Both the position numbers and the translations under genes were made by a program. 64,000 nucleotides of DNA, taken from contig NZ_NKTX01000008.1 of NCBI RefSeq assembly GCF_003207815.1, positions 1-64,000 of the forward strand, read 5' to 3'. This document shows positions 39,071-55,405 of this stretch, one piece after another. How positions within the stretch are numbered: the stretch's first letter is position 1; each line of letters opens with the position of its first letter. The notes below the pieces were generated by a model. That model worked only from the letters and a program-made list of their open reading frames with translations. It was not told the origin of the DNA and ran no database searches. This DNA is from Komagataeibacter oboediens. GTDB taxonomy: Bacteria > Pseudomonadota > Alphaproteobacteria > Acetobacterales > Acetobacteraceae.

Positions 39071-40306
39071 TCAGGGCATGATGATGCCGGCTATGGCCGC
39101 ACTCATCAGGTTGGACAGCATGCCACCCAGCACGGCACGCGCGCTTTTATGGGCAATTTCCTCACGCCGGTCCGGGCACTGGCTGCCAAAGGCCGCCACG
39201 GCAAGCCCCAGCGAACTGAGATTGGCGAACCCGCACAGGGCGAACGACGCAATGGCCGCCGCCCGGGCTGACAGACGGCCTGCCTGTATGTCCGGCCCCA
39301 GCCGCAGGTAGGCGACGAATTCGTTCAGCACGACCTTCAGCCCCAACACCGATCCCACCGCGTCGCATTCACCCGCAGGCACGCCCAGCATCCATGCCAG
39401 CGGCGCCAGCAGCAGGCCCATGATGTATTCCAGCGACAGTGCGGGCAGGCCGACATGCCCCCCGATACCCTGCAGCATGCCATTGACCAGCGCGATCAGG
39501 CCAATACACGCAACCAGCATGGCCGCCACCGCCACGGCGGTCTGGGCGCCCTTCATCGCGCCTTCCATCACGGCTTCGAAAAAGGCGCGATGATAGGCGG
39601 CACGCCCGGCGTCTATCGGGCTGACCGGGCTGTCCGGTGCGCGGGGTTCCAGCATCTTGGCGAACATCAGGCCGCCAGGAATGGCCATGAAGGACGCCGC
39701 CACCAGATAGTCCGCCGGAATACCCAGACCGAAATACCCGACCAGCGTCGCGCCGGAAACGGACGCCGTGCCGCTGCACATCACGCTGGCCAGTTCGCTT
39801 GTGCTCATGGATGCAAGATAGGGACCAAGGGCGACCGGCAGTTCGCTCTGGCCCACGAAAATGGTGATGATGGCGCCAAAGGATTCAACCGGCGACGTGC
39901 CCAGCAGCCACTGCAGCCCACGCCCCAGCAGACGGGCAAAGGCCTGCATGATGCCGAAATGATAGAGAACGGCAATCAGCGCGCTGACATAGACCAGCGA
40001 AGGCAGCACCTGAAACGCAAAGACATAGGATCCGTCGGGAAACAGGTCATGCATGCGGGGACCGACCAGTCCCCCGAACAGGAAGCGCGCGCCCTCGCTG
40101 CCATAGGACAGGACCTGCGTCACCATGTCCGATATGGCCCGCAGCGCGGCCTGCCCCGACGGCACACGCAGCACCAGCAGGCCAATCCCCGCCTGCAGCA
40201 GCAGACAGGCGCCGATAATGCGCAGGTTGATGCGTTTCCGGTCCGTGGAAAACACCATGGCAACACATATCAGGAATATAATGCCGATAAAGCCACGGAT
40301 ATGCAT
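39071..40306 (-). CDS. nupC: Concentrative nucleoside transporter (CNT/NupC family)
   Basis: A 411-residue inner-membrane nucleoside symporter with the CNT order: three N-terminal helices (gate and nucleoside transporter N regions), core domain with FVGQSELPVALGPYL and STSELASVMCSGTASVSG, and C-terminal NEFVAYLRLG...FALCGFANLSSLG. These hold the Gln-Glu, Glu, Asn-Glu and Ser-Leu-Gly residues that bind nucleoside and cation. Length is typical of bacterial NupC. It would supply nucleosides to the hydrolase at 29770. No good ribosome site precedes the ATG, so the start could be slightly off. Base specificity cannot be read from sequence alone. Confidence 0.9.
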   Translation of the reverse strand: MHIRGFIGIIFLICVAMVFSTDRKRINLRIIGACLLLQAGIGLLVLRVPSGQAALRAISDMVTQVLSYGSEGARFLFGGLVGPRMHDLFPDGSYVFAFQVLPSLVYVSALIAVLYHFGIMQAFARLLGRGLQWLLGTSPVESFGAIITIFVGQSELPVALGPYLASMSTSELASVMCSGTASVSGATLVGYFGLGIPADYLVAASFMAIPGGLMFAKMLEPRAPDSPVSPIDAGRAAYHRAFFEAVMEGAMKGAQTAVAVAAMLVACIGLIALVNGMLQGIGGHVGLPALSLEYIMGLLLAPLAWMLGVPAGECDAVGSVLGLKVVLNEFVAYLRLGPDIQAGRLSARAAAIASFALCGFANLSSLGLAVAAFGSQCPDRREEIAHKSARAVLGGMLSNLMSAAIAGIIMP

Positions 40307-40795
40307 GAGGAAACTTTCAGGCCGCAGAAACGCAAAATGGAATTTTCTGACTATTTAGTTAGGTTAGCGTAACATCATGCCGCCCATCGTCAAGCATCTG
40401 TCTTGTCCCGCACGCATATTCCACGCACCGGGCGAAGGGGTGAACAGGACCGTATCCACCGCGGGGCACATCTGCCCGTAAGCGCATGATGCGCCGTGCC
40501 CTGCCAGCGTAATGGGAATCACGGCGGCATCGGACAGGCAGCATGGCAATACTGCAGGCTTTCCCTTCAGCCTCATGCCACCGGCGAACACCCGCATAGA
40601 TAGAACGGCATGATCTCCCCAATGGCACATACCGGTCAGCCAGTCCTGCGCAGGCAGGATCGACAATGTCCGGCCCGGACCGCCGGACGGGACATGGTGG
40701 ACAGTACGCCGCAACCGGGCCAGATTACGGGTAACCTCTGATTTTCAGTCCATAATAAAAATAACAAACATTCGTAATAAAAGGAGAAGCCAGGC
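40307..40795. other. Divergent intergenic region between CNT transporter and MDR oxidoreductase
   Basis: No credible gene. Next to the CNT start is TTAGTTAGGTTAGCGTAAC (40354-40372), a TTAG-rich direct repeat that could be regulatory. GTCCGGC-ccggacc-GCCGGAC (40668-40688) is a 7-bp hairpin about 110 bp upstream of the oxidoreductase. The last 50 bases are A-rich and end in an AAGGAG ribosome site. Confidence 0.45.
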
Positions 40796-41806
40796 ATGAA
40801 CCGGACAATCGTGGTGCAGCCCCCAGGCGGGTTCGCGAATGTGGTCATGACGGATCAGCCCGTGCGCGCGCCCGCCGCAGGTGAAATCAGGGTGCGCCTG
40901 CATGCCTCGTCGCTGAATTATCATGATTACGCCGTTGTGAGCGGCATGTGGGGACCGGCCGTGCCGCGCATTCCCATGGCGGACGGGGCGGGCGAGGTAG
41001 TGGAAACCGGGGCAGGGGTCACGGAATTCGCGCCCGGCGACAGGGTGGTCAGCACGTTTTTCCCCACCTGGCTTTCCGGTGCGCCACAGGTCATCGGGTT
41101 TACGACCGTACCGGGCGACGGGGTGGACGGATATGCGCGCGAATACGTCACCGCCCCTGCAACATCATTTACCCATGCGCCCCGCGGATGGACGCACGCG
41201 CAGGCCGCGACACTCACCACCGCAGGCCTGACCGCGTGGCGCTCCCTGTTTGTTGATGACCGGATCAGCCCGGGCAACACCGTTGTGGTTCAGGGCACGG
41301 GCGGGGTGTCCATATTCGCCCTGCAGTTCGCCAAGATGGCGGGCGCAACGGTGATCGCAACGTCCTCCAGCGGTGCCAAGCTAGACCGCCTGCGTGAACT
41401 GGGCGCGGATCACGTGATCAATTACCGCGAAAACCCGCAATGGGGGAAAACCGCATGGGACCTGACCGACGGCAGGGGTGTGGACCATGTCATTGAAGTG
41501 GGCGGCCCGGCAACCCTGGCGCAGTCAATGGAGGCGATCAGGGTCGGGGGGCATATTTCCACCATCGGCATCCTGAGCGGCGTTTCGGGCCATCTGGAAA
41601 TCGTGCCCATGCTGCTGAAGCAGTTCCGCCTGCAGGGGGTTCTGGTCGGTAGCCGGGCAGACCAGCAGGCCATGGTGCGGGCCTTTGACGCGCACGCCAT
41701 CCGCCCGGTCATTGATCGCGCCTTTCCGCTGGAAAACATTGTGGACGCGTTCCGCTATCAGGAAAGCAACCGGCATTTCGGCAAGATCTGCCTGGAAATC
41801 CAGTAA
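40796..41806 (+). CDS. Zinc-independent MDR oxidoreductase (quinone reductase/alcohol dehydrogenase-like)
   Basis: A 336-residue medium-chain dehydrogenase/reductase. The GroES-like N-domain reads SLNYHDYAVVSGMWG where zinc alcohol dehydrogenases have the catalytic Cys, so no catalytic zinc is expected. The Rossmann domain has VVQGTGGVSIFALQFAKMAGA at about residues 162-182. The protein ends FGKICLEI, typical of the family. It probably uses NADPH to reduce quinones or enones. A strong AAGGAG precedes the ATG. A perfect hairpin follows, so it is monocistronic; the TetR gene 300 bp downstream may regulate it. Confidence 0.85.
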   Translation: MNRTIVVQPPGGFANVVMTDQPVRAPAAGEIRVRLHASSLNYHDYAVVSGMWGPAVPRIPMADGAGEVVETGAGVTEFAPGDRVVSTFFPTWLSGAPQVIGFTTVPGDGVDGYAREYVTAPATSFTHAPRGWTHAQAATLTTAGLTAWRSLFVDDRISPGNTVVVQGTGGVSIFALQFAKMAGATVIATSSSGAKLDRLRELGADHVINYRENPQWGKTAWDLTDGRGVDHVIEVGGPATLAQSMEAIRVGGHISTIGILSGVSGHLEIVPMLLKQFRLQGVLVGSRADQQAMVRAFDAHAIRPVIDRAFPLENIVDAFRYQESNRHFGKICLEIQ

Positions 41807-41815
41807 TACGGAAAA

Positions 41816-41841
41816 ACTGCCCCTGCATGGTCAGGGGCAGT
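41816..41841 (+). terminator. Terminator hairpin after the MDR oxidoreductase
   Basis: ACTGCCCCTG-catggt-CAGGGGCAGT, a perfect 10-bp stem 10 nt after the stop, preceded by AAAAA on the plus strand (so T-rich on the opposite strand). Nothing else is seen in the gap to 42105. Confidence 0.6.
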
Positions 41842-42104
41842 CACCGGCCCGCCTTCTGGCGGCATGAAAAGCCCGGGCCACGGGCGTGACCTGTTCTCGC
41901 TGGGGATCAAGCGTTTCATCAACAGAAAGCCGGTTCATGCACCAGCATGACACCGCCGGTAGAGGCGCCCGGGCCTGTACCGCGCGAAGGCATACCCGCC
42001 ATGGGCGCATGTCATGTCGCGGGGCGGGGCGATGGCACCTGAAAGGGGTTGTGTGGTATGGATCGCCTGTTTCTTTCGGAACAGATGCAACCAGAGGACC
42101 GGAC

Positions 42105-42764
42105 ATGCCTGACGTATCCCCAAGGCCCCAGCACACAGGCGGACGCCCGACACCTGAAGTGTCGGCGCAGCTTGACCGGCAGGTCCTTGAGGTCGCGACC
42201 GCCCTTTTTGTCGAACAGGGATATGCCGCCACTTCGCTGGAAAAGATTGCCCGCGTCATAGGATGCAGCAAGGCCACGCTGTACCGTCGCTATTCCTCGA
42301 AAGAGGACCTGTTCAAGGCCGTGGTGGCCGAACGGGGCCGGTTGCTGCTGCACGAAGCGGGGGCCATGGAGGCATCGTCCAAAGACCCGCTGGTAGCAAC
42401 ACGTGAAATTGCCCGGTTCTTTCTGGACTTCATGCTGCGGCCGGAAACGCGCGAAGCCTACCGGATTGTCATTAGCGACGGGCACCGCATTCCATTCGTT
42501 GCCGATGAAATGATGGTCACCATCGTGGAACCCTTCGTAGCAACCATAAGCCGCCTGCTGCGTGTAGCAGCGGACGCGGGACGTATTGAATCCCACGACC
42601 ATGAGGAAATGACGCGCGTCCTCATGAGCCTGGTGATCGGATGGCCGTTGCAGAACACCATGCTGGGCCAGAACCGGATGCAGGATGCCGCCGCACGAAA
42701 AAAGTTTTTTGACAGGGCATGGGGGATTTTCCTGTCCGGCATATGCACAAACGCCAGCGCCTGA
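42105..42764 (+). CDS. TetR-family transcriptional regulator
   Basis: A 219-residue TetR regulator. A short basic/Pro tail is followed by the HTH: LDRQVLEVATALFVEQGYAATSLEKIA then IGCSKATLYRRYSSKEDLF. The C-terminal ligand domain resembles the AefR/TetR_C_7-like group (FFLDFMLRPETREAYRIVISDG). GAGGA at 42094-42098 fixes the ATG at 42105; a 73-residue upstream extension is an artefact. Its target is unknown. It lies after a terminator and convergent to the isochorismatase operon, so the MDR oxidoreductase gene or its own promoter are the nearest candidates. Confidence 0.85.
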   Translation: MPDVSPRPQHTGGRPTPEVSAQLDRQVLEVATALFVEQGYAATSLEKIARVIGCSKATLYRRYSSKEDLFKAVVAERGRLLLHEAGAMEASSKDPLVATREIARFFLDFMLRPETREAYRIVISDGHRIPFVADEMMVTIVEPFVATISRLLRVAADAGRIESHDHEEMTRVLMSLVIGWPLQNTMLGQNRMQDAAARKKFFDRAWGIFLSGICTNASA

Positions 42765-43065
42765 CCTACCTGCCGCATCAATCCCCTGTTGGGGCATTCG
42801 TATGTAAATCAGGCCGATCAGACCCGCCCGCCAGGTTCATGGCATGAATGACTATGGTCCCGTATCCATGCACCAGACATGCTGACCCACAGGTTGCGGG
42901 CCATCCAGCCGGCAGAATGTCTGCCCGATGCACGTCTTGGCGCGCCAGCCTTGATTCATCTGTCAGATAGACAGGGCGACCGGTGGCGGGGTCAGCGCCC
43001 CCGCAAACGGGGTGCCGGAATGATCCGGCAGCCCGCACCTGATATGGAACTTTCAGGCTGCCGCG
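42765..43065. other. Intergenic stretch between convergent genes
   Basis: Only a small hairpin CCCC-tgtt-GGGG (42783-42794) stands out, 20 nt past the TetR stop. The minus-strand frame across this region lacks a start site and natural composition and I do not call it. Confidence 0.4.
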
Positions 43066-43839
43066 TCATGCCGCGCCATCGTGCATCGCACGCAGGCATT
43101 CGTCGCCGCTGGTGACGAAACCGAAGCACTGCCGCACGTTATAGACCGTCGCCTGCGCGCAGAAATCGGGCGATGTCGTGGCGGCGCAGTCCTCCAGCAG
43201 AATGCAGTCATACCCAAGACAGCTTGCATCCTGCAACGTGGCCATGACGCACTGGTCCATATTGACCCCCGCGAACAGCAGCGTGTCCACCCGCAGGTTA
43301 CGCAGCACGCTGTCCAGCACCGTGTCCCAGAAGCCGCTCATGCGGTATTTGTCCACGTGGAGGTCACGCGACGCATCAGCCGCCAGTTCATCCACGATGC
43401 CGGCACTCCAGCTGCCATGTTCCAGCACGTGGGCATCATGCACCGGGAGCGCCCCGCCAAGACCCACGCCGTGTCCCTCGGGGTCATAGACATGCAGCAG
43501 GGAAGGGGGAATGTTGGCCAGATCCTTCCGGTTGCCCCAGTTCACCCATATCACCGGCACGCCTGCGCCGCGCAGGGCGGGCAGCAGGCGCGACAGTGGC
43601 GCGATTGGCGCGCGCGCGGGCGTGATGTCCACCCCGATCCCGGCCAGCCAGCCCTCGGGGTGACAGAAATCATTCTGCATGTCGATCACGATCATGGCCG
43701 TCCGCGCCAGGTCAAGCGTGACCTGCTTGGGCGGCGCGCTGAGCGTGACTAGACGCGGCGTGACGGAGGGGCGCACAAGGTTGGCGGTGGTGTCGGACAC
43801 CTGCCAGCGGTTACGGGTGTTGCAGCCCAGCGGGTTCAT
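43066..43839 (-). CDS. Isochorismatase-family cysteine hydrolase (amidase)
   Basis: 257 residues with the family triad: Asp53 in VIDMQNDFCHP, Lys164 in HVDKYRMSGF and Cys197 in GVNMDQCVMAT, preceded by the usual cis-peptide region. Relatives include RutB, N-carbamoylsarcosine amidase, biuret hydrolase and nicotinamidase; residues around the active site do not decide between them. A GGAAG site precedes the ATG at 43839. It is the last gene of a seven- or eight-gene minus-strand operon, 11 bp after the cupin gene. A carbamoyl- or amide-bearing intermediate is the likely substrate, since creatininase and deaminase homologues are in the same locus. Confidence 0.85.
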   Translation of the reverse strand: MNPLGCNTRNRWQVSDTTANLVRPSVTPRLVTLSAPPKQVTLDLARTAMIVIDMQNDFCHPEGWLAGIGVDITPARAPIAPLSRLLPALRGAGVPVIWVNWGNRKDLANIPPSLLHVYDPEGHGVGLGGALPVHDAHVLEHGSWSAGIVDELAADASRDLHVDKYRMSGFWDTVLDSVLRNLRVDTLLFAGVNMDQCVMATLQDASCLGYDCILLEDCAATTSPDFCAQATVYNVRQCFGFVTSGDECLRAMHDGAA

Positions 43840-43850
43840 CGGGTCTTCCT

Positions 43851-44270
43851 TCAGCCGCACAGGACCGCACGGTCCTCATCATCCAGTTCGACAGGCGTGC
43901 CGCGACGGATCAGCGCACCGAATTTTTCATCCGGCACCATGACCGTCAGGGTATAGAGCTTTTTATCGCCGGTATTTTCCACGATATGCTCCGACCCCGG
44001 CTTGACCAGCAGTGCATCCCCCTTGCGCAGTTCGGTGGCCTGCCCGTTGCACAGCGCGCGGCCCTGTCCACTCAGCACGAAAAACAGTTCATCTGCCGCC
44101 CGGTGCGTGTTGGGCGGTGTCTTGCCGCCGACCGTGAAGATTTCCACAACGGCGACGCAGATCGTCCCGCCATCCTTTTCATCAAACAGCAGCACGAAAT
44201 AGTTGCTGTCATTGGGTGAAATGCGACGGGCCTCGATCTGGCCGACCGATCTCTTGTAAAAGGCGTTCAT
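43851..44270 (-). CDS. Small cupin-domain protein
   Basis: 139 residues with one cupin barrel. Motif 1 reads GGKTPPNTHRAADELFFVLSG and motif 2 is GDALLVKPGSEHIVEN. The metal ligands His (THR), Glu (DE) and His (EH) are present, so it may bind Fe, Mn or Zn. Such proteins act as dioxygenases, isomerases or binding proteins. GGAGA lies 5-6 nt before the ATG at 44270, which is 1 nt past the upstream stop, so the gene is tightly coupled in the operon. Function within the pathway is unknown. Confidence 0.8.
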   Translation of the reverse strand: MNAFYKRSVGQIEARRISPNDSNYFVLLFDEKDGGTICVAVVEIFTVGGKTPPNTHRAADELFFVLSGQGRALCNGQATELRKGDALLVKPGSEHIVENTGDKKLYTLTVMVPDEKFGALIRRGTPVELDDEDRAVLCG

Positions 44271-44271
44271 G

Positions 44272-45921
44272 TCATTCTCCGGCTGGTGAAAGGGGAAGAT
44301 GCAAGCATGTGCCGCCATCCCCGGTCACGATGTGTACGGTGGTCACGGTCATGTCCGGCAGGGCGGCGTCACATGGCGCGACACCCGTACCGGGATTGAG
44401 GGGAAAGGCCGGAAAGCATGACAGGGAAACCGAAAGCCGCAGGGCTTCGCCCGCTTCCACCCGCGCACAGGTGGCGCGCATGGGCACGGTGGTCTCTCCC
44501 GGTCCGGCCCTGGCATAACCTTCCGCAAGGGTATAGGCCTGCCCCGCTGCGCTTATGCGCGACAGAACGGCATGCAGGTCAAAGGACGGATGCGCGCTGC
44601 GCACCACAAACCGGCACATGACCTGACCACACAGCAGGTGCGGCGCGGTCAGTGGCGGGGTGGTGAATGTCGCGATGTCAGACCGGGCATCCGTCCGGCT
44701 GCGGTCAACCGGGCCGACCGGCATGCCAAAACTGCCGCCCTGCGCCGGGGCGGGCCGCCATGGGTCAAGGGTCAGGGACTGCGGCACATCCGCATCCGGC
44801 CGGATCTGGCCTGCGGGCACAAGCCCCCCGTCGCGCGTATCAATGGCGGCACGCCCGGTTCCGGACAGGTGGAACATGGCCTGAGGTTCCGGCAGGTCGG
44901 CGCCATCGCGCCAGACATGCGCCCCCATATCAAACAGGCGCACGGGCGCGTCAGGCGTGGCGGGGGGACGGTCTTTCAGCCACTGGTCGAACCAGCGGAC
45001 CTGCTGCTGGTCAATATCGGTTATGGCGTCATTGCCAAAATCCAGATCCCCGGTGCGCCGGTCCCACGGGAAATGCCCCCATGGTCCCACCAGCAGCCGC
45101 GCCGGAACATGGCCCGACAGCGCCCGCCATGCCGCCAGCGTGCCGGGCAGGTGGCTGTCGTACCACCCACCAATCAGGAAAACCGCCGGTTTGCTGGCAA
45201 TGATCGCATCCACATGCGCGGCGGGCGAGATTGATGCCCAGTACGGGTCATCCGCCGGGGTATCCAGCCATGTGGTATAATGGCTGTACCGGCGCAGCAG
45301 GTCGAGAATGGGCGGCCTGACAGGTGTCGACCCGGAAAAGGACATGCCGCGCGATGCCGCGAACAGGGTCGCCTGTGCTGCGTGGTCCCCGGCAAGACGC
45401 GCGGTCTCGGCCGCAAGCTGTATCGCCCACCCCAGGTTGGCGCGCAGGGGAAAGGCGTCATTTTCATAGGCCCAGTCACGGCGCAGGTCCCAGCCGATCA
45501 TGGCTGGTGCCAGCGCGCGCAGGGCAGGGCAGTCCTGGGTCGCGGCCAGTAGCTGGTTGGTTCCCTGAAAGGAAAACCCGAACATCCCGACCCGCCCCGA
45601 GCTGCCTGGCAATCCGGCAGCCCAGTTGACCGTATCCACCCCGTCCTGCGCTTCATACCGGAACAGGTCGAACGTGCCGCCGGATTCACCACGTCCGCGT
45701 GCGTCCTGCATGACCACGATATACCCACGTGCCGCGTACCATTCCGGCGGCGCATAGCACAGCGATGTGCCGATACGCCGGCCATAGGCCTGCCGCATCA
45801 GCAGGACGGGAAACGGCCCGTCCCCTTCGGGCTGCCATATGTCGGCCACCAGCACCGTCCCGTCGCGCGCGCACATGCGTTCGGTGCGCGGCGCGGCCAC
45901 GGCGTACAGCCTGTCCGTCAT
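44272..45921 (-). CDS. CocE/NonD-family serine hydrolase
   Basis: A 549-residue alpha/beta hydrolase of the X-Pro dipeptidyl-peptidase/cocaine-esterase type. The nucleophile is Ser117 in GFSFQGTN, the His candidate is in VGPWGHFPW and the acid in VRLFDMGAHVW. The C-terminal jelly-roll domain (from about 330) is characteristic. Relatives cleave esters, amides or acyl-peptide bonds, including beta-lactam side-chain esters and amides. No signal peptide, so cytosolic. Its ATG overlaps the stop of the FAD oxidase gene (ATGA). In this operon it may release an acyl group from an imported substrate. Confidence 0.85.
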   Translation of the reverse strand: MTDRLYAVAAPRTERMCARDGTVLVADIWQPEGDGPFPVLLMRQAYGRRIGTSLCYAPPEWYAARGYIVVMQDARGRGESGGTFDLFRYEAQDGVDTVNWAAGLPGSSGRVGMFGFSFQGTNQLLAATQDCPALRALAPAMIGWDLRRDWAYENDAFPLRANLGWAIQLAAETARLAGDHAAQATLFAASRGMSFSGSTPVRPPILDLLRRYSHYTTWLDTPADDPYWASISPAAHVDAIIASKPAVFLIGGWYDSHLPGTLAAWRALSGHVPARLLVGPWGHFPWDRRTGDLDFGNDAITDIDQQQVRWFDQWLKDRPPATPDAPVRLFDMGAHVWRDGADLPEPQAMFHLSGTGRAAIDTRDGGLVPAGQIRPDADVPQSLTLDPWRPAPAQGGSFGMPVGPVDRSRTDARSDIATFTTPPLTAPHLLCGQVMCRFVVRSAHPSFDLHAVLSRISAAGQAYTLAEGYARAGPGETTVPMRATCARVEAGEALRLSVSLSCFPAFPLNPGTGVAPCDAALPDMTVTTVHIVTGDGGTCLHLPLSPAGE

Positions 45922-47279
45922 GCCGGGGTTTCCTGCGCCACCGGGGTAAAGCTGCGCATCTTGCCGGGATTGAGCAGGCCCATCGGGTCATTGCGCTGCT
46001 TGGCCGCCAGCAGTTCCGGGGCGATCTGCTGGCGCGGGCTACCGTCCTCCAGCGTATAGACATGGGGGTTGGCCACGCTGACCCCATGCGCGCGGAACAG
46101 GGCGATGATCGCATCCAGCCGGTCCTGCGTGGTGAACCGGAATACCGGCAGGCCCGCGCAGGCGATCTGGCCGCCAACATTCATGAACTCCAGGTGGAAC
46201 ATCACCTCCTCACCCAGCAGCCGCGTCATCGTATCCACGCTTTCAAGCATATCCTGCGCGGGATGGAGACATTGCAGGTAGGTAAAGGAGCGGTCCTTCT
46301 TGAGCACCTGCAGGGTCGTGTGGTTCCACGTCAGTTCATACAGCGGCATCCGCGTGGGGTCGTCCTCGGCCTCATGCATGGCGGCGCGGTAGCATATGCT
46401 GCCATTCTGCTGGCGTGCGAGGTCGTCTACCACCGCCACGGCTGCAGGCGCCACCATGGCAATGACGATCGCATGGCCCGGCGGCACGACATCGGATAGA
46501 TGCGGGAAATAGGGGACAAGCCGCGCGTCGATCACGCTGACCAGTTTCCTGTCGATGCCCGGCTGCATGGCCAGTGAGCGCCCGAACGCGGCGGCCGCGG
46601 CAAAATCCGCAAAGCCAATGGCCAGATCCTGCCATGCGATCACCGGCTCGACCGGTACGTCCACTTCCGTCACGATGCCCGTGGTGCCATAGGCATGCTG
46701 CAGGCAGAACACCTCCCTGCCGCGCAGGTCCTGCACCTCGGGTTCGACTGCGAGGGAGACAAGCCGCGCACCCAGCAGGTTGCCCGGATTGCTCAGCCCG
46801 CCCCACCTGACCGAACCGATGCCGCCGGACCCCCCGCAGTAGAAACCACCAATCGACGCCGTGCGCTTGGTGGAGGGGAACATGCGGATTTCCAGCCCCT
46901 GCCCACGCAGTTCACGGTCAAGGGCAAGGATATTGGCACCCGCCTGCACCCGGGCCACGCCGTGTTCCACCTTCAGCACACGGTTCATTTCGGTCATGTC
47001 CACGATCACGCCCTGCTGCAGCGGTACGGCCTGACCATAATTGCCCGTGCCCCCGCCGCGCACGGTCAGGGGAACATTATGCCGCCGCGCCGCCCGGGCT
47101 ATGTCCAGCACGTCGTCCGTCGTGCGGGGCATGACCACCGCCTGCGCCGCCAGCCCGTGCAACCGCGCCTTCAGTGCCGGGCTGTACCAGTAGAAATCCC
47201 GGCTTTTGCGCTTGACGATGGCAGGCTCGGTCTGGGCCGCGACATGCGGAAGGTCATTAAGGAACGTATCCAGGGTCAT
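45918..47279 (-). CDS. FAD-binding (PCMH-type) oxidoreductase
   Basis: 453 residues of the vanillyl-alcohol-oxidase/GlcD superfamily. The PCMH domain has AVVMPRTTDDVLDIARAAR and VPLTVRGGGTGNYGQ, with Thr where covalent-FAD enzymes often have His, so FAD is probably non-covalent at this position. The central SIGGFYCGGSGGIGSVRWG follows. The C-terminus ends in DPMGLLNPGKMRSF, typical of the family. GGAGAG precedes the ATG at 47279; the longer frame is an artefact. It could oxidise a hydroxy acid, alcohol or amine intermediate. Its stop overlaps the CocE-like start, so the two are translationally coupled. Confidence 0.85.
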   Translation of the reverse strand: MTLDTFLNDLPHVAAQTEPAIVKRKSRDFYWYSPALKARLHGLAAQAVVMPRTTDDVLDIARAARRHNVPLTVRGGGTGNYGQAVPLQQGVIVDMTEMNRVLKVEHGVARVQAGANILALDRELRGQGLEIRMFPSTKRTASIGGFYCGGSGGIGSVRWGGLSNPGNLLGARLVSLAVEPEVQDLRGREVFCLQHAYGTTGIVTEVDVPVEPVIAWQDLAIGFADFAAAAAFGRSLAMQPGIDRKLVSVIDARLVPYFPHLSDVVPPGHAIVIAMVAPAAVAVVDDLARQQNGSICYRAAMHEAEDDPTRMPLYELTWNHTTLQVLKKDRSFTYLQCLHPAQDMLESVDTMTRLLGEEVMFHLEFMNVGGQIACAGLPVFRFTTQDRLDAIIALFRAHGVSVANPHVYTLEDGSPRQQIAPELLAAKQRNDPMGLLNPGKMRSFTPVAQETPA

Positions 47280-47305
47280 ATGCGTCTCTCCTATCCCCGA
47301 TCGGC

Positions 47306-48127
47306 CTAGCGCCCCAGGTCCGGCGTGACCGGGCGTATGCGCTCCAGCGGGTAGCGGGCGACTTCCGCCATCAGTTCCAGAAAGCCCTCGATGTACTTGT
47401 CTGCAACCAGCCTGCCTTTTTCCGCAGTCGCCCCCGATGCATCGCCACATGCACCCGCGGGGTGAAGGTCATGGGCATGCCAGCCGAACCCCACGCGGCC
47501 TTCGGCCTGCAGCCACTTGTATTCCCTGGCCATTTCTTCGGGCCAGGACACGAAGTTTTCCGCCCGCTCCATCCGTACCAGGTCGGGGCGCAGGTAGCAC
47601 ATGAGCGACGTTTCGACATCGCCGCCATGAATGCCGTATTTCAGTTCCTGCGGGGTGAACAGCCCCTCGGGGCAGCCGAAACGCCCCCATGCCACGCACA
47701 CCACAAACAGGTTGTGGGTCCGCCGCAGTTCCCTCGCCACGATGTCGAGTATCTGCGGCTGTCCCCCATGGGAATTGAGCAGCACCAGCCTGCGCACACC
47801 CGCGCGCGCGACGCTGGCCCCAAGGTCCAGCAGCACATGTAGCAGCGTATCAGCCGACAGCGTCAGCGTGCCAGGGTAGGCAATGTGTTCGTCACTCTTG
47901 CCCACGGCCTGCAGCGGCAGCGCCGTGATCGGCAGGTCGACGGGCGCGCGTTCCAGCGCACGTTCCAGCAGCCCCGCATTGATGCAGCTGTCCACGCTGA
48001 CAGGCAGGTGCGGCCCGTGCTGTTCAATCGCGCCCACGGGCAGCACCGCGACCGTATTGTCCGGCAGCTCACGGAACTCACGCGAGATCATGTCCTGCCA
48101 GTAGCGACGGGGAAGGGTATTGGTCAT
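47306..48127 (-). CDS. Creatininase-family amidohydrolase
   Basis: 273 residues of the creatinine amidohydrolase family. Motifs include PVGAIEQHGPHLPVSVD (30-46; Glu35, His37, Asp46 as metal ligands), LLNSHGGQ near 116-123 and HGGDVETSLM near 164-173 with the third ligand Glu. Relatives open cyclic amides (creatinine), deformylate FAPy (ArfB) or act in peptide cofactor maturation (MftE), so the fold fits ring opening but not one substrate. The gene lies between the ABC permease and the FAD oxidase in one operon. Confidence 0.88.
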   Translation of the reverse strand: MTNTLPRRYWQDMISREFRELPDNTVAVLPVGAIEQHGPHLPVSVDSCINAGLLERALERAPVDLPITALPLQAVGKSDEHIAYPGTLTLSADTLLHVLLDLGASVARAGVRRLVLLNSHGGQPQILDIVARELRRTHNLFVVCVAWGRFGCPEGLFTPQELKYGIHGGDVETSLMCYLRPDLVRMERAENFVSWPEEMAREYKWLQAEGRVGFGWHAHDLHPAGACGDASGATAEKGRLVADKYIEGFLELMAEVARYPLERIRPVTPDLGR

Positions 48128-48162
48128 ATCAGGTCAGATTCCGAAAAAAAGGGGAGCAGGCG

Positions 48163-48945
48163 TCATGTGACCGGGCGCATCCAGCGCCCGAGCAGCAGGC
48201 GTTCGATGGTGGTCATGCCACCATGCAGAACCAGCCCCGTGACAGTGATGAGGAAAAGGGCGGCGAACATGCGCGGTATGTCCATCTGGAAACCTGATTG
48301 CAGGATTTCATAGGCCAGCCCCGCGCTGTTGCCCCCCGTACCGGCCACGAATTCCGCCACGACCGCGCCGACAAGGGCCAGCCCACTGGCGATCCTGACA
48401 CCGGCCATGAACATGGGCAGCGCACTGGGAATGCGCAGCCGCAGCAGCATCTGCATGCGCGTGGCCTTGTGCATGCGGAAATAGGCCTCCAGCCCCGGAT
48501 CAACGGAACCAAGGCCGATCAGCGTGTTGGAAATGACGGGGAAAATGGCAATCAGCGTGGCGCACAGCACCAGCGTCATGGACGTTGTCTTGACCAGCAC
48601 GATGATCAGCGGCGCCACCGCCGCGATGGGGGTGACCTGCAGGATGATGACATACGGCATGAAACTGGCCTGCAGCAGCCTGTGCTGCACCAGCACGACC
48701 GCGATGGCCGTGCCCAGCAGGACCGAAACCAGCAGCGACACAAGGGTGACATACAGCGTGCTGCCCAGCGCATGAAGCAGCATGGGCCCGTTGGCATACA
48801 GCGAGGCCACGATATCGGACGGCGCCGGGAATAGGTACGTGGGAATGGCAAACAGCCGGCAGGCCGCCTGCCATATCCCCAGCGTGCACAGCCCCACCAC
48901 CACCGGTGCAAGCAGGCCCAGCCGTGCCGCATTGCGCGCGTTCAT
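48163..48945 (-). CDS. ABC transporter permease, NitT/TauT type
   Basis: 260 residues with about six membrane helices and the SsuC/TauC/ThiX-like EAA loop (AYFRMHKATRMQMLLRLRIPSALPMFMAG at about 171-199). It forms the membrane channel of the importer encoded with the next two upstream genes. The ATG at 48945 overlaps the ATPase stop (ATGA). The downstream creatininase-like gene starts 35 bp after its stop, so uptake and catabolism are one transcription unit. Confidence 0.88.
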   Translation of the reverse strand: MNARNAARLGLLAPVVVGLCTLGIWQAACRLFAIPTYLFPAPSDIVASLYANGPMLLHALGSTLYVTLVSLLVSVLLGTAIAVVLVQHRLLQASFMPYVIILQVTPIAAVAPLIIVLVKTTSMTLVLCATLIAIFPVISNTLIGLGSVDPGLEAYFRMHKATRMQMLLRLRIPSALPMFMAGVRIASGLALVGAVVAEFVAGTGGNSAGLAYEILQSGFQMDIPRMFAALFLITVTGLVLHGGMTTIERLLLGRWMRPVT

Positions 48946-49739
48946 GGATTTACGCCCTCCGCGCCGGCAAAGGTTGCATGGGTTGCCTCCGTCAGCATCT
49001 GGCTCAGGTCGCGGCACATATGGGCGAACCCGTCGCTCAGCCGGAATGCGTCGTCACGGCGGATGGCGGGGTCGATATGGTATTCACCAAATATCCGCCC
49101 CGGATTGGCCGCCATGACAATGACACGCGACGACAGGAAAACCGCCTCGTACAGCGAATGCGTGACAAAAACCGTGGTCAGCCCGTTTTCGTAGCACAGA
49201 CGCGCCATTTCCCCATCCAGCCGGTCGCGGGTGAATTCATCCAGAGCGCCGAACGGCTCATCCATCAGCAGCAGGTCGGGCCGCGTCACCAGTGCGCGCG
49301 CGATGGAGGTGCGCATTTTCATGCCGCCCGACAGCTGCGCAGGGTAATGCCGCAGCACATGGCCCAGCCCGACCTGTTCCAGCGCGGCACGGACCTGCGG
49401 CGCAGCGGTGGAGACGGGCACGCGTTCCAGGTCCAGCGGGAGGCGCACGTTATCTTCCACCCGCGCCCATGGCATGAGTGTCGGGTCCTGGAATACGAAG
49501 GCCATCCTGTGCCCTTCGGACCCCACATGCGTGAAATCGCGTCCCCACCACCGCACCAGCCCGGCCGTGGGCGGGTGGATGGAGGCAATGACCTTGAGCA
49601 GCGTGCTCTTGCCACAGCCGGACGGGCCGATCAGGCTTATGAATTCACCGGGCTGGATTTCCAGGTCAACCGGGGCAAGCGCGCGGACGCCACTGCCAAA
49701 GACCTTTTCGACCCCCCACAGGCCAACGACCGGGCTCAT
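48942..49739 (-). CDS. ABC transporter ATP-binding protein, NitT/TauT type
   Basis: 265 residues. Walker A is GPSGCGKST (about 41-49), the Q-loop is FVFQDPTLMPW, the signature is LSGGMKMR, Walker B LLLMDEPFGALD, and the switch His is in VTHSLYEA. This pattern is that of TauB/SsuB/ThiZ-like ATPases that import sulfonates, nitrate or pyrimidine precursors. Start and stop overlap the neighbouring genes by 4 nt each. It powers uptake through the permease at 48163. Confidence 0.9.
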   Translation of the reverse strand: MSPVVGLWGVEKVFGSGVRALAPVDLEIQPGEFISLIGPSGCGKSTLLKVIASIHPPTAGLVRWWGRDFTHVGSEGHRMAFVFQDPTLMPWARVEDNVRLPLDLERVPVSTAAPQVRAALEQVGLGHVLRHYPAQLSGGMKMRTSIARALVTRPDLLLMDEPFGALDEFTRDRLDGEMARLCYENGLTTVFVTHSLYEAVFLSSRVIVMAANPGRIFGEYHIDPAIRRDDAFRLSDGFAHMCRDLSQMLTEATHATFAGAEGVNP

Positions 49740-50734
49740 GCTACGGTCGTGCTCAGATGCGACACGAATTCGGTCGTATAGGCCCTGCGCCACGCCGGTG
49801 TGTCGGGAAACTGGCCATCAGCCGTGACAAGGTCATGCAGCGCCGCCCACTGGGCATCATCCATCATGCCGATCACGCTTCCTTTTTCCCCCAGCGCACT
49901 GATCCGGCGCAGCGCATCGCGCGAATAGGCAAGCTGGGCCGCCGACATGGACGGATTGTCAACGACGATATCCCTGTCCCCCGCCGTCGCATCGCCGTAC
50001 AGGTACGTGTTCCACCCCACCGCACTGGCGCGCAGGAAGCGGGTCACGTCGTCCCCGCGCCGGGCAATGACATCGCGCGTGGCCAGAAGCACGTTACCGT
50101 ATGTGCGATAGCCGGAATCAGACAGAAGCAGGTAATTGAAGGGGATGTTCTTCTGTGTCGCGGCAAAGGGTTCGGAGGTTACGAAGGTCTGGATCGCCAG
50201 ACGCGGGTTCATGACGAATGGCTGGATGTTGTAAGTATAGACACCGGCCTGCGCGTCCGAAAAACCAAATCGCGCGCGCAGCCACGGCCAGAAGGTGGCC
50301 CGCCCCTCGGTATTGATCAGGATGGGGTGCCCCTTCAGCTGGTCAAGCGCGGTAATGTCCTTGTGCACCATAAGGCCGGTCACGGATTTCTGGAACGACG
50401 TGCCTATGGCCACAACCGGCAGGTCCTTTGCCGCAGCAAGCAGCGCAAGTTCCATGCTGCCGATCATGATGTCGGCCTGACCGCCAAGCAGCAGCTGCAT
50501 GTTGTTGACCTGCGGCCCGCCCATTCTGATGGAGACGGGAACCCCGGCCTGCGCATACAGGCCGTCGGCCCGGGCCTGATAAAAACCACCGTGTTCTGCC
50601 TGGGCATACCAGTTTGTCAGCAGCCGCAGCGTCGGCTGGTCCGCCGCTGCGGGGCGCGGGCGCATGAACATGGTGGCCATCATGGCGCCGCCGGCCGCCA
50701 GCATGCTACGTCTGCCTATGCCCTGATGGTGCAT
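49736..50734 (-). CDS. ABC transporter substrate-binding protein (NMT1/ThiY-like)
   Basis: 332 residues. The N-terminus (GRRSMLAAGGAMMATMF...PAAA) is a twin-arginine-like export signal. The mature protein opens LRLLTNWYAQAEHGGFYQARADGLY, the classic NMT1/THI5-like start with the Trp and His/Gly that line a pyrimidine or aromatic-amine pocket in ThiY-type proteins. GGGGAAG precedes the ATG at 50734; the ATG at 50746 has no site. It is the first gene of the operon. By family it may bind a pyrimidine-like or other small nitrogenous compound; the true ligand is unknown. Confidence 0.87.
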   Translation of the reverse strand: MHHQGIGRRSMLAAGGAMMATMFMRPRPAAADQPTLRLLTNWYAQAEHGGFYQARADGLYAQAGVPVSIRMGGPQVNNMQLLLGGQADIMIGSMELALLAAAKDLPVVAIGTSFQKSVTGLMVHKDITALDQLKGHPILINTEGRATFWPWLRARFGFSDAQAGVYTYNIQPFVMNPRLAIQTFVTSEPFAATQKNIPFNYLLLSDSGYRTYGNVLLATRDVIARRGDDVTRFLRASAVGWNTYLYGDATAGDRDIVVDNPSMSAAQLAYSRDALRRISALGEKGSVIGMMDDAQWAALHDLVTADGQFPDTPAWRRAYTTEFVSHLSTTVA

Positions 50735-50788
50735 CGTCTTCCCCATTAACCCGGACGGCTGAATTTACAACGGCAGCGTAACATTATA

Positions 50789-50892
50789 GAATCGTATTGA
50801 TAAAGCGGTATTTTTAACATGTCGTGTTGCTTAACTGGCATCATGCTGTTCCATTGCAATCGCGGCCGGATGCGGGATTAATGATACGATTC
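50789..50892. promoter_or_regulatory. Pair of inverted 9-bp sites in the divergent promoter
   Basis: GAATCGTAT (50789-50797) and its exact reverse complement ATACGATTC (50884-50892) lie 95 bp apart between the ABC/creatininase operon and the deaminase-like gene. Flanking bases are also similar. The arrangement suits two half-operators of one regulator acting on both promoters, possibly by looping. No regulator gene is adjacent. Confidence 0.4.
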
Positions 50893-50951
50893 CGTTCTGG
50901 ACAGGTCGCGCGCAGGGGCATGGCAGGCAGGCGGCATGGACCCGGGACATA

Positions 50952-52208
50952 ATGATGGATCTTGCACTTTTCCCCGATAATGACGCCTACGTACTGGCCG
51001 ATGCCACACTGCCCGCAGCCGATGGCAGCCTGCTGCGCCGCAATCTGGTCATCGAAGGCGGGCGGATCGCCGCCATATCCGAACGCGCGCCCGATACGGC
51101 CCTCCCGGTGGTGGCGCTGGATGGCGCCATGGTCTGGCCCGCCATGGCGGATATCCACACTCATCTGGACAAGGGGTTCATATGGGACCGGACCCCCAAC
51201 CCCGACGGGACCTTCATGGGGGCGCTGCAGGCCGTCAATCAGGACCGCGAAGCTTACTGGAGCACGGAAGACGTACGCCGCCGCATGACATTCGCGCTGC
51301 GCTGCGCATACGCGCATGGCACGCAGGCGGTGCGTACCCATCTGGACACCATGGGTACGCACGGGCAGCGGGTGTGGCCACTGGTCCGGGACATGCAGGC
51401 GCAGTGGGCGGGCCGGATCGCGCTGCAGGCCGTCTCCCTCGTCATGCCGCAGTCCTACGCAGGGGAAGACGGCGAACGCATCGCGCGCGATGTTGCCAGC
51501 ACGCCGGGCGCGTGTCTTGGCGCGGTGCTCATGCACGACAACGCCACGCCGGAACATCTGGAGCGCCTGTTCGCACTGGCGGAACGCTTTGGCTGCGGGC
51601 TGGACCTGCATGTGGACGAAAACAACGTGCGCGGCGGCACCGCCCTGCAGACCGTGGCCGAGACGGTCATGCGACGGCGCTTCAGGCTGCCGGTGCTGTG
51701 CGGGCACTGCTGCAGCCTGTCGGTGCAGGATGCGCCGCATCAGGCCGAGATCGTGAAAAGCGTGGCCGATGCGGGCATTGGCATCGTCAGCCTGCCCATG
51801 TGCAACATGTACCTGCAGGACCGCACGCCCTGCCGCACCCCGCTGTGGCGCGGCGTGACAATGGTGCACGAACTGCACGCGGCGGGCGTGCCGGTCATGT
51901 TCGCCAGCGACAACACGCGCGACCCGTTCTATGCCTATGGCGACCTTGACATGGCGGAGGTATTTTCGCAGGCCGTGCGCATTGCGCATCTTGACCATCC
52001 GTTCGGCGGGTGGTGGCAGTCCGTGTCCGTCACCCCTGCGCGATGGATGGGGCTGGACACGACGCTGCGGGCCGGCAGCCCCGCCGACCTGGTAATTTTC
52101 GCGGCCCGGGACATGAACCAGCTTGTCACCCGGCCCACGGCGCCACGGGCCGTCATACGCCACGGAAGGGCGATCGATGCACGCGCGCCCTCATACGCCG
52201 AACTGTGA
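50952..52208 (+). CDS. Cytosine deaminase-like amidohydrolase
   Basis: A 418-residue amidohydrolase of the CodA-like branch. Metal ligands and catalytic residues appear in ADIHTHLDKGFIW (about 57-69), LDLHVDENN (about 218-226), LCGHCCSLS (about 253) and MFASDNTRDPFY (about 316-327). In CodA the equivalent residues bind one Fe/Zn and deaminate cytosine or ring-amidine analogues such as creatinine and isoguanine. Divergent from the ABC operon, it shares the promoter region and probably the substrate. The next codon is also ATG, so the start is 50952 or 50955. Confidence 0.85.
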   Translation: MMDLALFPDNDAYVLADATLPAADGSLLRRNLVIEGGRIAAISERAPDTALPVVALDGAMVWPAMADIHTHLDKGFIWDRTPNPDGTFMGALQAVNQDREAYWSTEDVRRRMTFALRCAYAHGTQAVRTHLDTMGTHGQRVWPLVRDMQAQWAGRIALQAVSLVMPQSYAGEDGERIARDVASTPGACLGAVLMHDNATPEHLERLFALAERFGCGLDLHVDENNVRGGTALQTVAETVMRRRFRLPVLCGHCCSLSVQDAPHQAEIVKSVADAGIGIVSLPMCNMYLQDRTPCRTPLWRGVTMVHELHAAGVPVMFASDNTRDPFYAYGDLDMAEVFSQAVRIAHLDHPFGGWWQSVSVTPARWMGLDTTLRAGSPADLVIFAARDMNQLVTRPTAPRAVIRHGRAIDARAPSYAEL

Positions 52209-52278
52209 CAGGTCGCGCAAGCGTCCGGCCACACCCCTTTTTCTTTTGCTACCAGTTCTGAAAAATGGATAGACCATC

Positions 52279-53724
52279 ATGAAGCCAATCGGAAAAAGAA
52301 CCCTGCTGGCAGCCACGATGCTGTGCCTGCTGCCATTTGCCCATGCGGGTGCTGCGGACAGCCAGCCATCGTTTCTTGTAAAGAACGCTTATATATTCTC
52401 CATGTCGGATAAATATAAGAAGCCCTTTACCGGATACATGCTGATCGACGCCAATGGCACGATCATGTCCGTTGCGCCCGGCACACCCGGCGCGGGCATC
52501 CATGCCACGACCACGCTTGACGCGCATGGCCACTGGATCATGCCGGGCTTCATTTCCGCCCACAGCCACCTGTGGCAGGCCGCCTATCGTGGTCTGGCGC
52601 AGGACAAGACGCTGCCGGGATGGATTGACGCGTTGTATGACAAGGCTGCCAGCCGCGCGCAGGCCGAGGATTTTTACTGGTTTACGCTGGATGGCGCGCT
52701 TGACCACCTGCAGCATGGCGTGACGGCAGCCTATAATTTCAATTACGGCAATCACTGGGGCCAGCCGAAAACCGAACGTGACAACGTGGACCACCAGCAG
52801 TTCCGCGCGGAAATGGATTCCGGCCTGCGCTTCGTACACGGCATCAACCCCACGGCGGACGCCGTCGACCATTCGCTGGATGGCGCGCGCCAGCACCTGC
52901 GCGGCTTCATTGACTGGTCAAGGGCGCAGCCTGCCAGCACCACATTCCTGTCCGTCATGCTGAATGGCACCGTCGCCTTTCAGGACAGTCCGGCCCATGC
53001 CCAGTCCGAAGCAATGCTGGAAGCGGCCCTGATGAAGGAATTCGGGGTCAGCAACCAGACCCATTACCTTGAACCGCCCGATACCATCGCGTCCGAACAG
53101 GCGGTCTTTCCCTATTTCGCGCAGAGCGGGATGATGGGGCCGAATCTGATCTTCGGGCACTTCATCCATACCACGCCCGAAATCCTGTCGCAGACAGGCC
53201 ATGCAGGGGCCGCCATGTCATGGAACCCCCTGTCCAACGGGCGGCTGGCCTCGGGCACGGCTGACATTCCCACCTACCTCAAGGACGGCATCCGTGTGGG
53301 CATGGGCGAAGATGGGGAGGCGAGTGCCGATCTGGCCGATCCGTTCGAAAACATGCGCACGGGGCTGTACGCCATCCGCGACAAATACCAGAGCGCCAGC
53401 ATCATGAGCCCCTATGACGTGCTGCGCCTGCATACGGTTGGCAGCGCGTCCGTCCTGCAGGTTTCCGACCGTCTGGGCAGCCTTGAGGCGGGCAAGCTTG
53501 CCGATTTTCTTGTGATCGACCCGACGCATCTCGCACATGTGTTTGATCCGTACGCAACGCTGGTCCTTGCCGCGTCCGAGCGGGATCTGGAACAGGTCTA
53601 TGTTGGCGGAAGGCTGGTGGTGGACCACGGCAGGGTGCTGACGCAGGACATCAGCGCGGTGGAAGCGCAGGCCGACCGGCGCGTGGCGGCATCGCTGCCG
53701 CACCATGCCGGTCGCCATAAATAA
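52279..53724 (+). CDS. Exported amidohydrolase (TRZ/ATZ-like)
   Basis: A 481-residue metal-dependent hydrolase with a Sec signal (MKPIGKRTLLAATMLCLLPFAHAGA). The core matches chlorohydrolase/guanine-deaminase-type enzymes: GFISAHSHLWQ near 91-101, IFGHFIHTTPE near 293, and MGEDGEASADLADP near 340, ending in an LGSLEAGKLADFLVID strand. The metal ligand pattern is modified (AHSH rather than HTH), and MGEDG replaces the usual SDG or TDS. Periplasmic members of this family are rarely characterised. It follows the deaminase-like gene by 70 bp on the same strand and may belong to its transcript. Confidence 0.82.
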   Translation: MKPIGKRTLLAATMLCLLPFAHAGAADSQPSFLVKNAYIFSMSDKYKKPFTGYMLIDANGTIMSVAPGTPGAGIHATTTLDAHGHWIMPGFISAHSHLWQAAYRGLAQDKTLPGWIDALYDKAASRAQAEDFYWFTLDGALDHLQHGVTAAYNFNYGNHWGQPKTERDNVDHQQFRAEMDSGLRFVHGINPTADAVDHSLDGARQHLRGFIDWSRAQPASTTFLSVMLNGTVAFQDSPAHAQSEAMLEAALMKEFGVSNQTHYLEPPDTIASEQAVFPYFAQSGMMGPNLIFGHFIHTTPEILSQTGHAGAAMSWNPLSNGRLASGTADIPTYLKDGIRVGMGEDGEASADLADPFENMRTGLYAIRDKYQSASIMSPYDVLRLHTVGSASVLQVSDRLGSLEAGKLADFLVIDPTHLAHVFDPYATLVLAASERDLEQVYVGGRLVVDHGRVLTQDISAVEAQADRRVAASLPHHAGRHK

Positions 53725-54199
53725 GACGCTACCTGAAATCAGCTTATTGATAAAAAACAGATAAAAGTTTGCGGGTGTCGCCTTTTCCCAAAAAGGCGAC
53801 GTCTCCCGAAGCTTTCCGCAGATTTACCGGACGTTTCGCAAGGCGGCTTTCCAGACAGTCCTCATACTTCCGGGTGCCGTTTTCCAAAAGGCGACGTGCA
53901 CGGCGCCGGACAGCCATGCAGGGCAGGGGAAATACTGCCTCCAGCCCCGGCGGGCCGATACGGGCAGGTGTCAATTAAAATGCAACAGCGTGTGGCCGTC
54001 TTTGTGTCTGGCGCAATCTTGCCGCATCTGTAACGTTTACCGGTCCCTTCACCTGATGTGATGATCCGGCCATGCCGGACGCGTGGCATGATCCATGGGC
54101 AACCGGGAACGATCAGGGGCGGCAGCGCCGTTGTGCCGCTTTCGGATGCATCCGGATTTCATGGCGGGTGTGGTCTGGAAACGAAAGCGAAAGTATTTG
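53725..54199. other. Repeat-bearing gap before the purine nucleoside permease pseudogene
   Basis: It contains repeat copies C and D (listed separately) and then about 300 bases with no recognisable gene. The 70 bp before 54200 hold no clear promoter; a second in-frame ATG at 54149 is possible for the downstream pseudogene. Confidence 0.5.
53764..53898 (+). repeat. Dispersed hairpin repeat, copies C (53764-53816) and D (53866-53898) with module 2 between
   Basis: Copy C reads AAGTTTGCGGGTGTCGCC, TTTTCCCAAAAAGGCGACG and TCTCCCGAAGCTTTCC. Module 2 follows at 53830-53863 (ACGTTTCGCAAGGCGGC, then TTTCCAGACAGTCCT). Copy D repeats only the GGGTGCCGTTTTCCAAAAGGCGACG part. All are in the same orientation as copy F near 61.3 kb. 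They lie just after the stop of the exported amidohydrolase. Confidence 0.6.
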
Positions 54200-55293
54200 A
54201 TGGCTGACCAGAGGCGAAGCAGGTTTCCTGCCGGTATTTTTACATCTGTCATGCTTGCGGGCGCGGCCTGCCTGCCCATGGCCGCGCATGGCGCGACACC
54301 TGCGCAGGAAGTCAGGTTTGTTGTCGTGACCAACTGGGAAAATGGCGCGGATAGCGGCGATGAACCCGGTGAGTACCAGAACTGGGTTGAACGCGAACAT
54401 CTGGATGAAAAAGTGCCCGTCCGCGGTGCGCCCGACGTGGTCCGCCGCAACAGGGCAGGGCTGTATGGCCTGGTGCTGCGGCATGGCGTAACGGACCTTG
54501 CGGCGTTCGTCCTTGATCCGCGTTTCGACTTCCATCACACCTACTGGCTGTTTACGGGCATCTCGGGTGTTGACCCCAATGCGGCCTCGGTCGGGAGCGT
54601 TGCATGGGCGCGCTGGGTCGTGGATGGTGATGCCCTGCGTGAAATTGATGACCGCACCATTCCCAAGGACTGGCCTTACGGGCTGTACGCCATCGGCGCA
54701 TCGCGTCCCAACACCCTGCCCGAAGCGCCGAACCATTATGGATCGGTGACGGATGTGGCGGAACTGACACGGGCATATCCGCTTAACCAGGGGCTGGCGC
54801 GCTGGGCATTCGCACTCAGCCAGCGGGTCAACCTGGCCGATGACCCGGCCATCGCCCTGCGGCGCAAGGCATGGACGGGCTTCGATCAGGCCCGCAAGCC
54901 ACCCTTTGTCCTGATGGGCGAGACACTGGGCGCGGAACGCTACTGGCACGGCGCGCCGCGCAACCGCCGCGCAACCGCTGGGCACAGGACTGGGTCAGGC
55001 TGTGGACACATGGGCAGGGCAAATTCGTCATGACGAATGAGGAAAGCCAGACCTACCAGCGTGAAATGCGCACGCTGGCCACGCTGGGCTTTGTCGATCC
55101 CGACCGGATCATGGTGCTGCGTTCAGGCAGCAATTTCTCGGTCCCGCCGCCGGGCGTGCCCGTGACGCAGTCGATGGGGGATGAAGGACCGGGGCAGTCA
55201 CTGGCGTTTGACAATAATGAACGGGCAGGGGAGCCGGTGATCGAGGAAATCCTGTCGAACTGGAAAAAATACCGCGACAATGTTCCCTCATGA
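54200..55293 (+). pseudogene. Purine nucleoside permease (NUP family), frameshifted
   Basis: Two overlapping frames together make one NUP-family protein. The first (from 54200) has a signal peptide (...MLAGAACLPMAAHG), the opening EVRFVVVTNWENGADSGDEPGEY and the middle up to ERYWHGAPRNR. The second frame continues WAQDWVRLWTHGQGKFVMTNEE to the stop at 55293. The break is an 11-bp tandem duplication (54956-54977). Removing one copy restores HGAPRNRWAQDW, a continuous NUP motif. Without it the protein ends about 18 residues after the break. NUP proteins are linked to nucleoside uptake, fitting the local theme. The lesion is either real inactivation or a sequencing/assembly error. Confidence 0.85.
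54956..54977 (+). repeat. 11-bp tandem duplication causing the NUP frameshift
   Basis: CCGCGCAACCG occurs twice in direct succession (54956-54966 and 54967-54977). An 11-bp gain shifts the frame by +2. Deleting either copy rejoins the two reading frames exactly. Confidence 0.9.
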
Positions 55294-55345
55294 CAAATCT
55301 TCTTAATAAATACACATAAGTGCTGGCGGCAGTGGTTTAACAGGA

Positions 55346-55379: not shown

Positions 55380-55405
55380 CACACCGATGAGGAGGCAACG
55401 TCACG

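Follow-up and report, generated by a model that had tools for sequence, protein, structure and literature searches.

A candidate cassette for pterin import and degradation in Komagataeibacter oboediens and other proteobacteria

The breakdown of pterins (2-amino-4-oxopteridines, which form the ring moiety of folate, or vitamin B9) is a pathway so far described only in fragments, and much of a gene set that probably serves it recurs in many proteobacteria. This set is considered here as a cassette of nine genes at positions 43066-52208 of a window of 64,000 nucleotides from Komagataeibacter oboediens (NCBI RefSeq assembly GCF_003207815.1, contig NZ_NKTX01000008.1, positions 1 to 64,000). The closest described enzymes include deaminases of the amidohydrolase superfamily, namely Arad3529, the Variovorax sp. 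F1 enzyme and isoxanthopterin deaminase, and a deaminase of the same superfamily is found in the cassette. In Variovorax sp. F1, a pterin deaminase of 399 amino acids takes folic acid and pteroic acid as substrates, and conserved 'endoribonuclease' genes lie downstream of the pterin deaminase in V. paradoxus (PMC9513972); several cassettes of beta- and gammaproteobacterial type likewise carry RidA beside the deaminase. Sargasso Sea enzymes of the 2paj-type family deaminate isoxanthopterin and pterin-6-carboxylate, as stated in a review (PMC5270733), and a 2paj-type enzyme serves as the deaminase substitute in Bradyrhizobium cassettes. Moreover, the flavin oxygenase of PDB entries 6v42 and 6v43 resembles the flavin adenine dinucleotide (FAD) enzyme of the cassette in whole-length homology, in fold and in the gene company of its Hoeflea relative, but the flavin reductases and RidA present in the Hoeflea-type locus are missing from the window, where an isochorismatase, a cupin and a CocE occur instead. 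The Rut uracil pathway bears a resemblance only, through its isochorismatase-fold hydrolase (RutB) and through the RidA and flavin reductase of other loci (RutC, RutF), and differs in that the window protein fails the RutB cut-off and the oxygenase-like enzyme belongs to FAD_binding_4. Lastly, the binding proteins of ThiY/THI5-type systems and their ATP-binding cassette (ABC) transporters share fold and family with that of the cassette, but the identity is 15-18%, and the window protein is linked to a catabolic cassette with no thiamin genes among those identified.

The cassette is likely to import and degrade pterins, perhaps folate-derived ones, and other heterocycles, taken together, are rather unlikely substrates. 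One pointer to pterins is the replacement of the deaminase by a relative of PDB 2paj in Bradyrhizobium; another is the published chemistry of the Variovorax pterin deaminase (PMC9513972), together with its presumed RidA neighbours. A first-pass annotation had proposed an undescribed import-and-degradation system for a nitrogenous compound, and its functional part is supported. Undescribed is only half apt: no paper on the set as a whole was found among the open-licence papers listed, but the FAD homologue stands in the PDB under a title on folate catabolism and pterin deaminases are known. The same annotation's guess of a larger, oxidisable substrate is consistent with a bicyclic pterin.

All nine open reading frames (ORFs) are intact, none with an internal stop, and their Pfam and NCBIfam families agree with the gene set given in that annotation. 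Eight genes follow one another on the minus strand: an NMT1/THI5-type substrate-binding protein with a twin-arginine start, a candidate pterin-binding protein (49736..50746, Pfam NMT1); an ABC transporter ATPase (48942..49739, Pfam ABC_tran, with Walker A, LSGG and DEPF present); an ABC transporter permease (48163..48945, Pfam BPD_transp_1); a creatininase-family metal amidohydrolase of an HGG subgroup, putatively a ring-opening hydrolase (47306..48127, Pfam creatininase, 236 bits); the FAD enzyme homologous to PDB 6v42 (45918..47279, Pfam FAD_binding_4); a CocE/NonD-family alpha/beta hydrolase with a GFSFQG motif (44272..45921, Pfam peptidase S15/PepX_C), which passes NCBIfam TIGR00976 with 354.5 bits against a cut-off of 66.3; a small cupin (43851..44270, Pfam Cupin_2); and an isochorismatase-fold amidohydrolase, putatively acting on a ureido or amide group (43066..43839, Pfam isochorismatase, 124 bits). 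The CodA-like metal-dependent deaminase, a putative pterin deaminase (50952..52208, Pfam amidohydrolase, NCBIfam NF005759), lies on the plus strand, and the intergenic space at 50747..50951 separates the divergent transcription units. Improved starts were assigned to the ATPase (ATG 49739, the listed ORF having begun at GTG 49793), the permease (ATG 48945), the FAD enzyme (ATG 47279), the cupin (ATG 44270) and the isochorismatase (ATG 43839). The binding protein, ATPase and permease genes are joined by ATGA overlaps of 4 bp each, in agreement with the translational coupling noted earlier, and the CocE start at ATG 45921 gives a further 4-bp overlap with the FAD gene. The assembly that holds the window totals 3.8 Mb, spread over 278 contigs.

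Along its full length the FAD enzyme aligns with PDB 6v42 at an E value of 4.1e-192, the next PDB sequence giving 6.8e-20, and it has the same fold. In the title of entry 6v42, the source for its function, the protein is called a flavin oxygenase "involved in folate catabolism"; the closest relative of 6v42 in the set (86% identity) is a cassette member in Hoeflea. Relatives of the window enzyme with 55-62% identity occur in Endobacter, Acetobacter and Gluconobacter. From these family relations, the FAD enzyme may oxygenate a folate-derived pteridine. It is found as two adjacent copies in seven of the 20 regions from the taxonomic family of the window (L042, L043, L045, L047, L048, L049 and L050), perhaps as a two-subunit or two-step enzyme. 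Some FAD-enzyme loci, e.g., L068, L074 and L128, have no creatininase or deaminase nearby.

The deaminase passes the NF005759 model with 543 bits (cut-off 403), and its residues H69, H71, Q159, H220, E223, H252 and D320, whose roles are assumed here from CodA, are invariant in 13 of 13 aligned sequences, so that the residues of an amidohydrolase deaminase are intact. All 13 also carry N321 at the position of the second aspartate of CodA, presumably D314. Only half of the cassette deaminases tested (five of ten) pass NF005759, and the label "cytosine deaminase" on this model may be wrong for many proteins, those of the cassettes included. A route of cytosine or pyrimidine catabolism, in which a true cytosine deaminase would feed a new oxidative uracil pathway, could draw on the passed cut-off, on RutB (TIGR03614) as the top match of the isochorismatase-fold enzyme, and on the RidA and flavin reductase of other loci, which recall RutC and RutF. 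Nevertheless, it is quite improbable, as the RutB cut-off is missed by far (131 vs 378 bits), the genome has a second, conventional cytosine deaminase elsewhere, half of the cassette deaminases tested fail the model, asparagine replaces the CodA aspartate throughout, and the deaminase can be replaced by a 2paj relative.

This replacement is seen in Bradyrhizobium (L069 and L088) and in locus L184, where no CodA-like deaminase was found and a different amidohydrolase adjoins the transporter genes. The enzyme of L069 scores 412 bits against PDB 2paj, which is taken here to be the isoxanthopterin deaminase described by Hall et al. (2010), and also matches NCBIfam NF009059. Both kinds of deaminase lie near one another in Gluconobacter (L067) and Klebsiella (L191). 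The 2paj relatives belong to the 8-oxoguanine deaminase family, for which the L069 enzyme scores 403 bits with a cut-off of 532, and the cassette could act on another fused or oxidised heterocycle, e.g., an oxidised purine of the 8-oxoguanine type, along the same lines (deamination, then oxygenation, then ring opening). A CNT nucleoside transporter, a purine nucleoside permease and an S1/P1 nuclease near the cassette would suit such a substrate, as would a Roseomonas mucosa plasmid that pairs isochorismatase, cupin, creatininase and CocE with the purine-pathway gene HpxZ. However, the homologue of the FAD enzyme is titled for folate catabolism and the nucleoside genes do not belong to the families found to recur in other loci, and an oxidised purine is thus considered unlikely. 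Regarding pterins, RidA, formerly named endoribonuclease L-PSP and taken here to be the Variovorax 'endoribonuclease', directly follows the deaminase in seven distinct places of beta- or gammaproteobacterial type (L177 with L196, L178, L180, L191, L192, L195 and L200). A Variovorax plasmid record gave no deaminase match, an empty answer there being uninformative.

Near its start the binding protein carries the twin-arginine stretch GRRSML, presumably a twin-arginine translocation (Tat) motif, and combines an NMT1 domain with the fold of ThiY/THI5-like binding proteins. Its nearest solved structures are a thiamin-bound protein, a formyl-aminopyrimidine binder and Thi5, which could suggest salvage or breakdown of thiamin or its pyrimidine. 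Such a function is very unlikely, since the structural alignments reach only 15-18% identity, no thiamin salvage enzyme is among the identified cassette genes, and the FAD enzyme again points to folate catabolism through the title of its homologue.

In the creatininase relative, E35, H37, D46, H120 and E172 are conserved without exception across the 15 aligned sequences. Judging from its sequence, it is not a true creatininase: it scores 93.9 bits against an NCBIfam creatininase (TIGR04448) cut-off of 235, and in the segment after the NGH motif all 15 aligned sequences read HGG, where the solved creatininases shown read HYE, or HYQ in one chain. The isochorismatase-fold enzyme carries D53, K164 and C197 and falls below the cut-off for biuret amidohydrolase (NF050097, 120.5 vs 370 bits) as well as below that of RutB. 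Therefore, the parallel with the creatinine, N-methylhydantoin and carbamoylsarcosine route drawn in the first-pass annotation is unsupported, because the creatininase, RutB and biuret hydrolase cut-offs failed and HGG is present. A pathway of this kind accounts for the creatininase Pfam domain and the isochorismatase-fold amidase, but the failed equivalog, the HGG segment and the presence of the FAD enzyme and deaminase, which point elsewhere, make it the most improbable of the rival explanations; a creatinine-like substrate is improbable.

The spread of the cassette was followed in the best 80 of at least 585 loci found by the FAD enzyme, so that the fractions describe close relatives and not all carriers; presence means a tblastn score of at least 55 bits, so that genes which have diverged or lie beyond the end of a short locus count as absent. 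The co-occurrence of these families elsewhere, which the first-pass annotation had proposed as a check, was found: the ATPase is present in 63 of the 80 loci, the permease in 58, creatininase in 57, deaminase and binding protein in 55 each, flavin reductase in 52 and RidA in 34, followed by LysR (17), Rieske oxygenase (12), isochorismatase (9), CocE and cupin (8 each), and the 2paj-type deaminase (9, six of them weak matches at 28-37%). Among the 61 long loci (more than 18 kb), 40 combine creatininase and either deaminase type with all three transporter genes. Around the 6v42-type enzyme in the 20 own-family regions, creatininase occurs in 18, deaminase in 11 and binding protein in 10, and around weak GlcD-like relatives, in 12 control regions hand-picked from the weak end of the FAD-enzyme match list and including two shorter than 15 kb, creatininase occurs once (26% identity) and deaminase and binding protein never. 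With the own genome counted, the 6v42-type FAD enzyme (E <= 1e-60) is present in 34 of 200 genomes of the window's taxonomic family and in 32 of 398 genomes of a phylum-wide draw, 28 of these from the same class and four from outside it. The gene set is conserved, partially throughout and completely in a small number of loci: all nine genes recur in Endobacter (L065), Acetobacter (L066), Gluconobacter (L067), Parvibaculum (L108) and loci L040 and L052, the family-search loci L037 and L038 being apparently the same as L065 and L066. Judged by their record titles, nine of the 80 loci come from cyanobacteria, and the full set is in none of them; creatininase and deaminase each occur in two, the transporter in one, isochorismatase, cupin and CocE together in one, and the FAD enzyme alone in four, two of which are short. 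A plasmid search at the DNA level with the whole locus gave four weak partial records, none spanning the locus.

Within these loci two lower branches can be told apart, the window being of the isochorismatase-cupin-CocE kind, with RidA and flavin reductase in many other loci. Cupin and isochorismatase occur together in all eight long loci holding either, and CocE (8) and RidA (31) are never found together among the 61 (Fisher p 0.002, with loci treated as independent and their relatedness ignored). On the Roseomonas mucosa plasmid (L034, 7800-16930), isochorismatase, cupin, creatininase and CocE occur with HpxZ, an amidase and a transporter of another kind; neither the FAD enzyme nor the deaminase has a match across its 18.8 kb; the lower module can therefore stand apart from the pterin steps. 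As a speculation, for which this plasmid is the best hint, the module might handle a simpler product, possibly an oxalyl-ureide.

In the proposed course, the exported binding protein would capture the pterin and the ABC transporter would bring it in. The CodA-like enzyme would then strip the 2-amino group to give a lumazine and ammonia, and the FAD enzyme of the 6v42 family would oxygenate the deaminated pteridine. In turn, the creatininase-family enzyme would hydrolyse a cyclic amide, opening a ring, the isochorismatase-fold enzyme would release a carbamoyl or amide moiety, and the lower branch would be finished by CocE and the cupin. The gene set, its conservation, the intact catalytic residues and the family relations are observed; the substrate, the order of the steps and all reactions after deamination and oxygenation are inferred. 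The wider picture, a dedicated pterin ABC importer with a pathway dismantling the pteridine ring, mainly in Alphaproteobacteria, also in other proteobacteria and as fragments in cyanobacteria, with interchangeable deaminases (CodA-like or 2paj-like) and alternative lower branches (RidA and flavin reductase, or isochorismatase, cupin and CocE), is a possibility of almost even weight and is proposed tentatively.

Several observations weigh against pterins as the substrate. The identity of the FAD enzyme with 6v42 is 42%, and no literature on 6v42 was found in open-licence papers, its function resting on the entry title. The NF005759 name for the window deaminase is cytosine deaminase, and the Arad3529 and Variovorax enzymes were compared with this CodA-like protein by description only. 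Neither deaminase type is present in 12 of the 61 long loci, and in L190, L179 and L197 the gene right after the deaminase is not RidA. No flavin reductase, RidA, Rieske oxygenase, LysR or 2paj-type gene lies within 38001-58000 of the window to supply a reductant, should an oxygenase need one. Moreover, the nearby nucleoside transporter, purine nucleoside permease and nuclease also suit nucleic-acid scavenging. The pterin assignment is put at likely, and no higher, because of the title-only function of 6v42, the cytosine deaminase name and the nearby nucleoside genes.

In the neighbourhood of the cassette, a CNT-family Na+-dependent nucleoside transporter lies upstream at 39071-40306. Past the deaminase, the stretch 52279-59514 encodes a TRZ/ATZ-type amidohydrolase with a signal-peptide-like start (52279..53724, plus strand, 70 bp past the deaminase), a purine nucleoside permease (NUP), an S1/P1 nuclease, a PLD-like protein and a carboxylesterase, which looks like nucleic-acid scavenging; their order is kept in the two congeners with the cassette. 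The TRZ/ATZ amidohydrolase, whose membership in the cassette is uncertain, stays with it in both of these congeners but has no orthologue in the wider set, where identities reach 28% at most. The NUP gene (54095-55293) is split into two frames, 54095-55033 covering profile positions 2-210 and 54871-55293 covering 207-312, by a frameshift that is either real or assembly-made. Only three of the 19 genomes of the genus have the cassette creatininase (100, 99 and 95% identity), the remaining 16 having distant paralogues only. In one of these three (G605), the stretch 43084-59514 has a counterpart of 80-85% DNA identity on a contig that lacks the neighbour gene 40796-41806; a separate contig carries that gene (80%).

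Other carriers show further gene company. In Rhizobium bangladeshense and R. etli CIAT 652 (L060 and L061), the cassette adjoins a urea ABC transporter, UAAP1/UAAP2, urea carboxylase and allophanate hydrolase. Sets of the urea carboxylase/allophanate hydrolase type serve guanidine or urea use, and the pathway may release a urea- or guanidine-like product. In R. johnstonii 3841 (L062, 3872-7668), paoABC and XdhC, genes of aldehyde/xanthine-type molybdenum hydroxylases, stand beside the creatininase gene; enzymes of this type can hydroxylate pteridines.

The identity of a pterin importer is named as an open question in a 2026 review, and if the assignment to pterins is true, the transporter of the cassette is a candidate for this role. 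The Variovorax paper closes with the fate of pteroate and deaminopteroate as open questions (PMC9513972). The sequence-based link to pterins would give both the importer and the pteroate questions named genes to work with, e.g., RL_RS34440-RL_RS34480 of Rhizobium johnstonii 3841.
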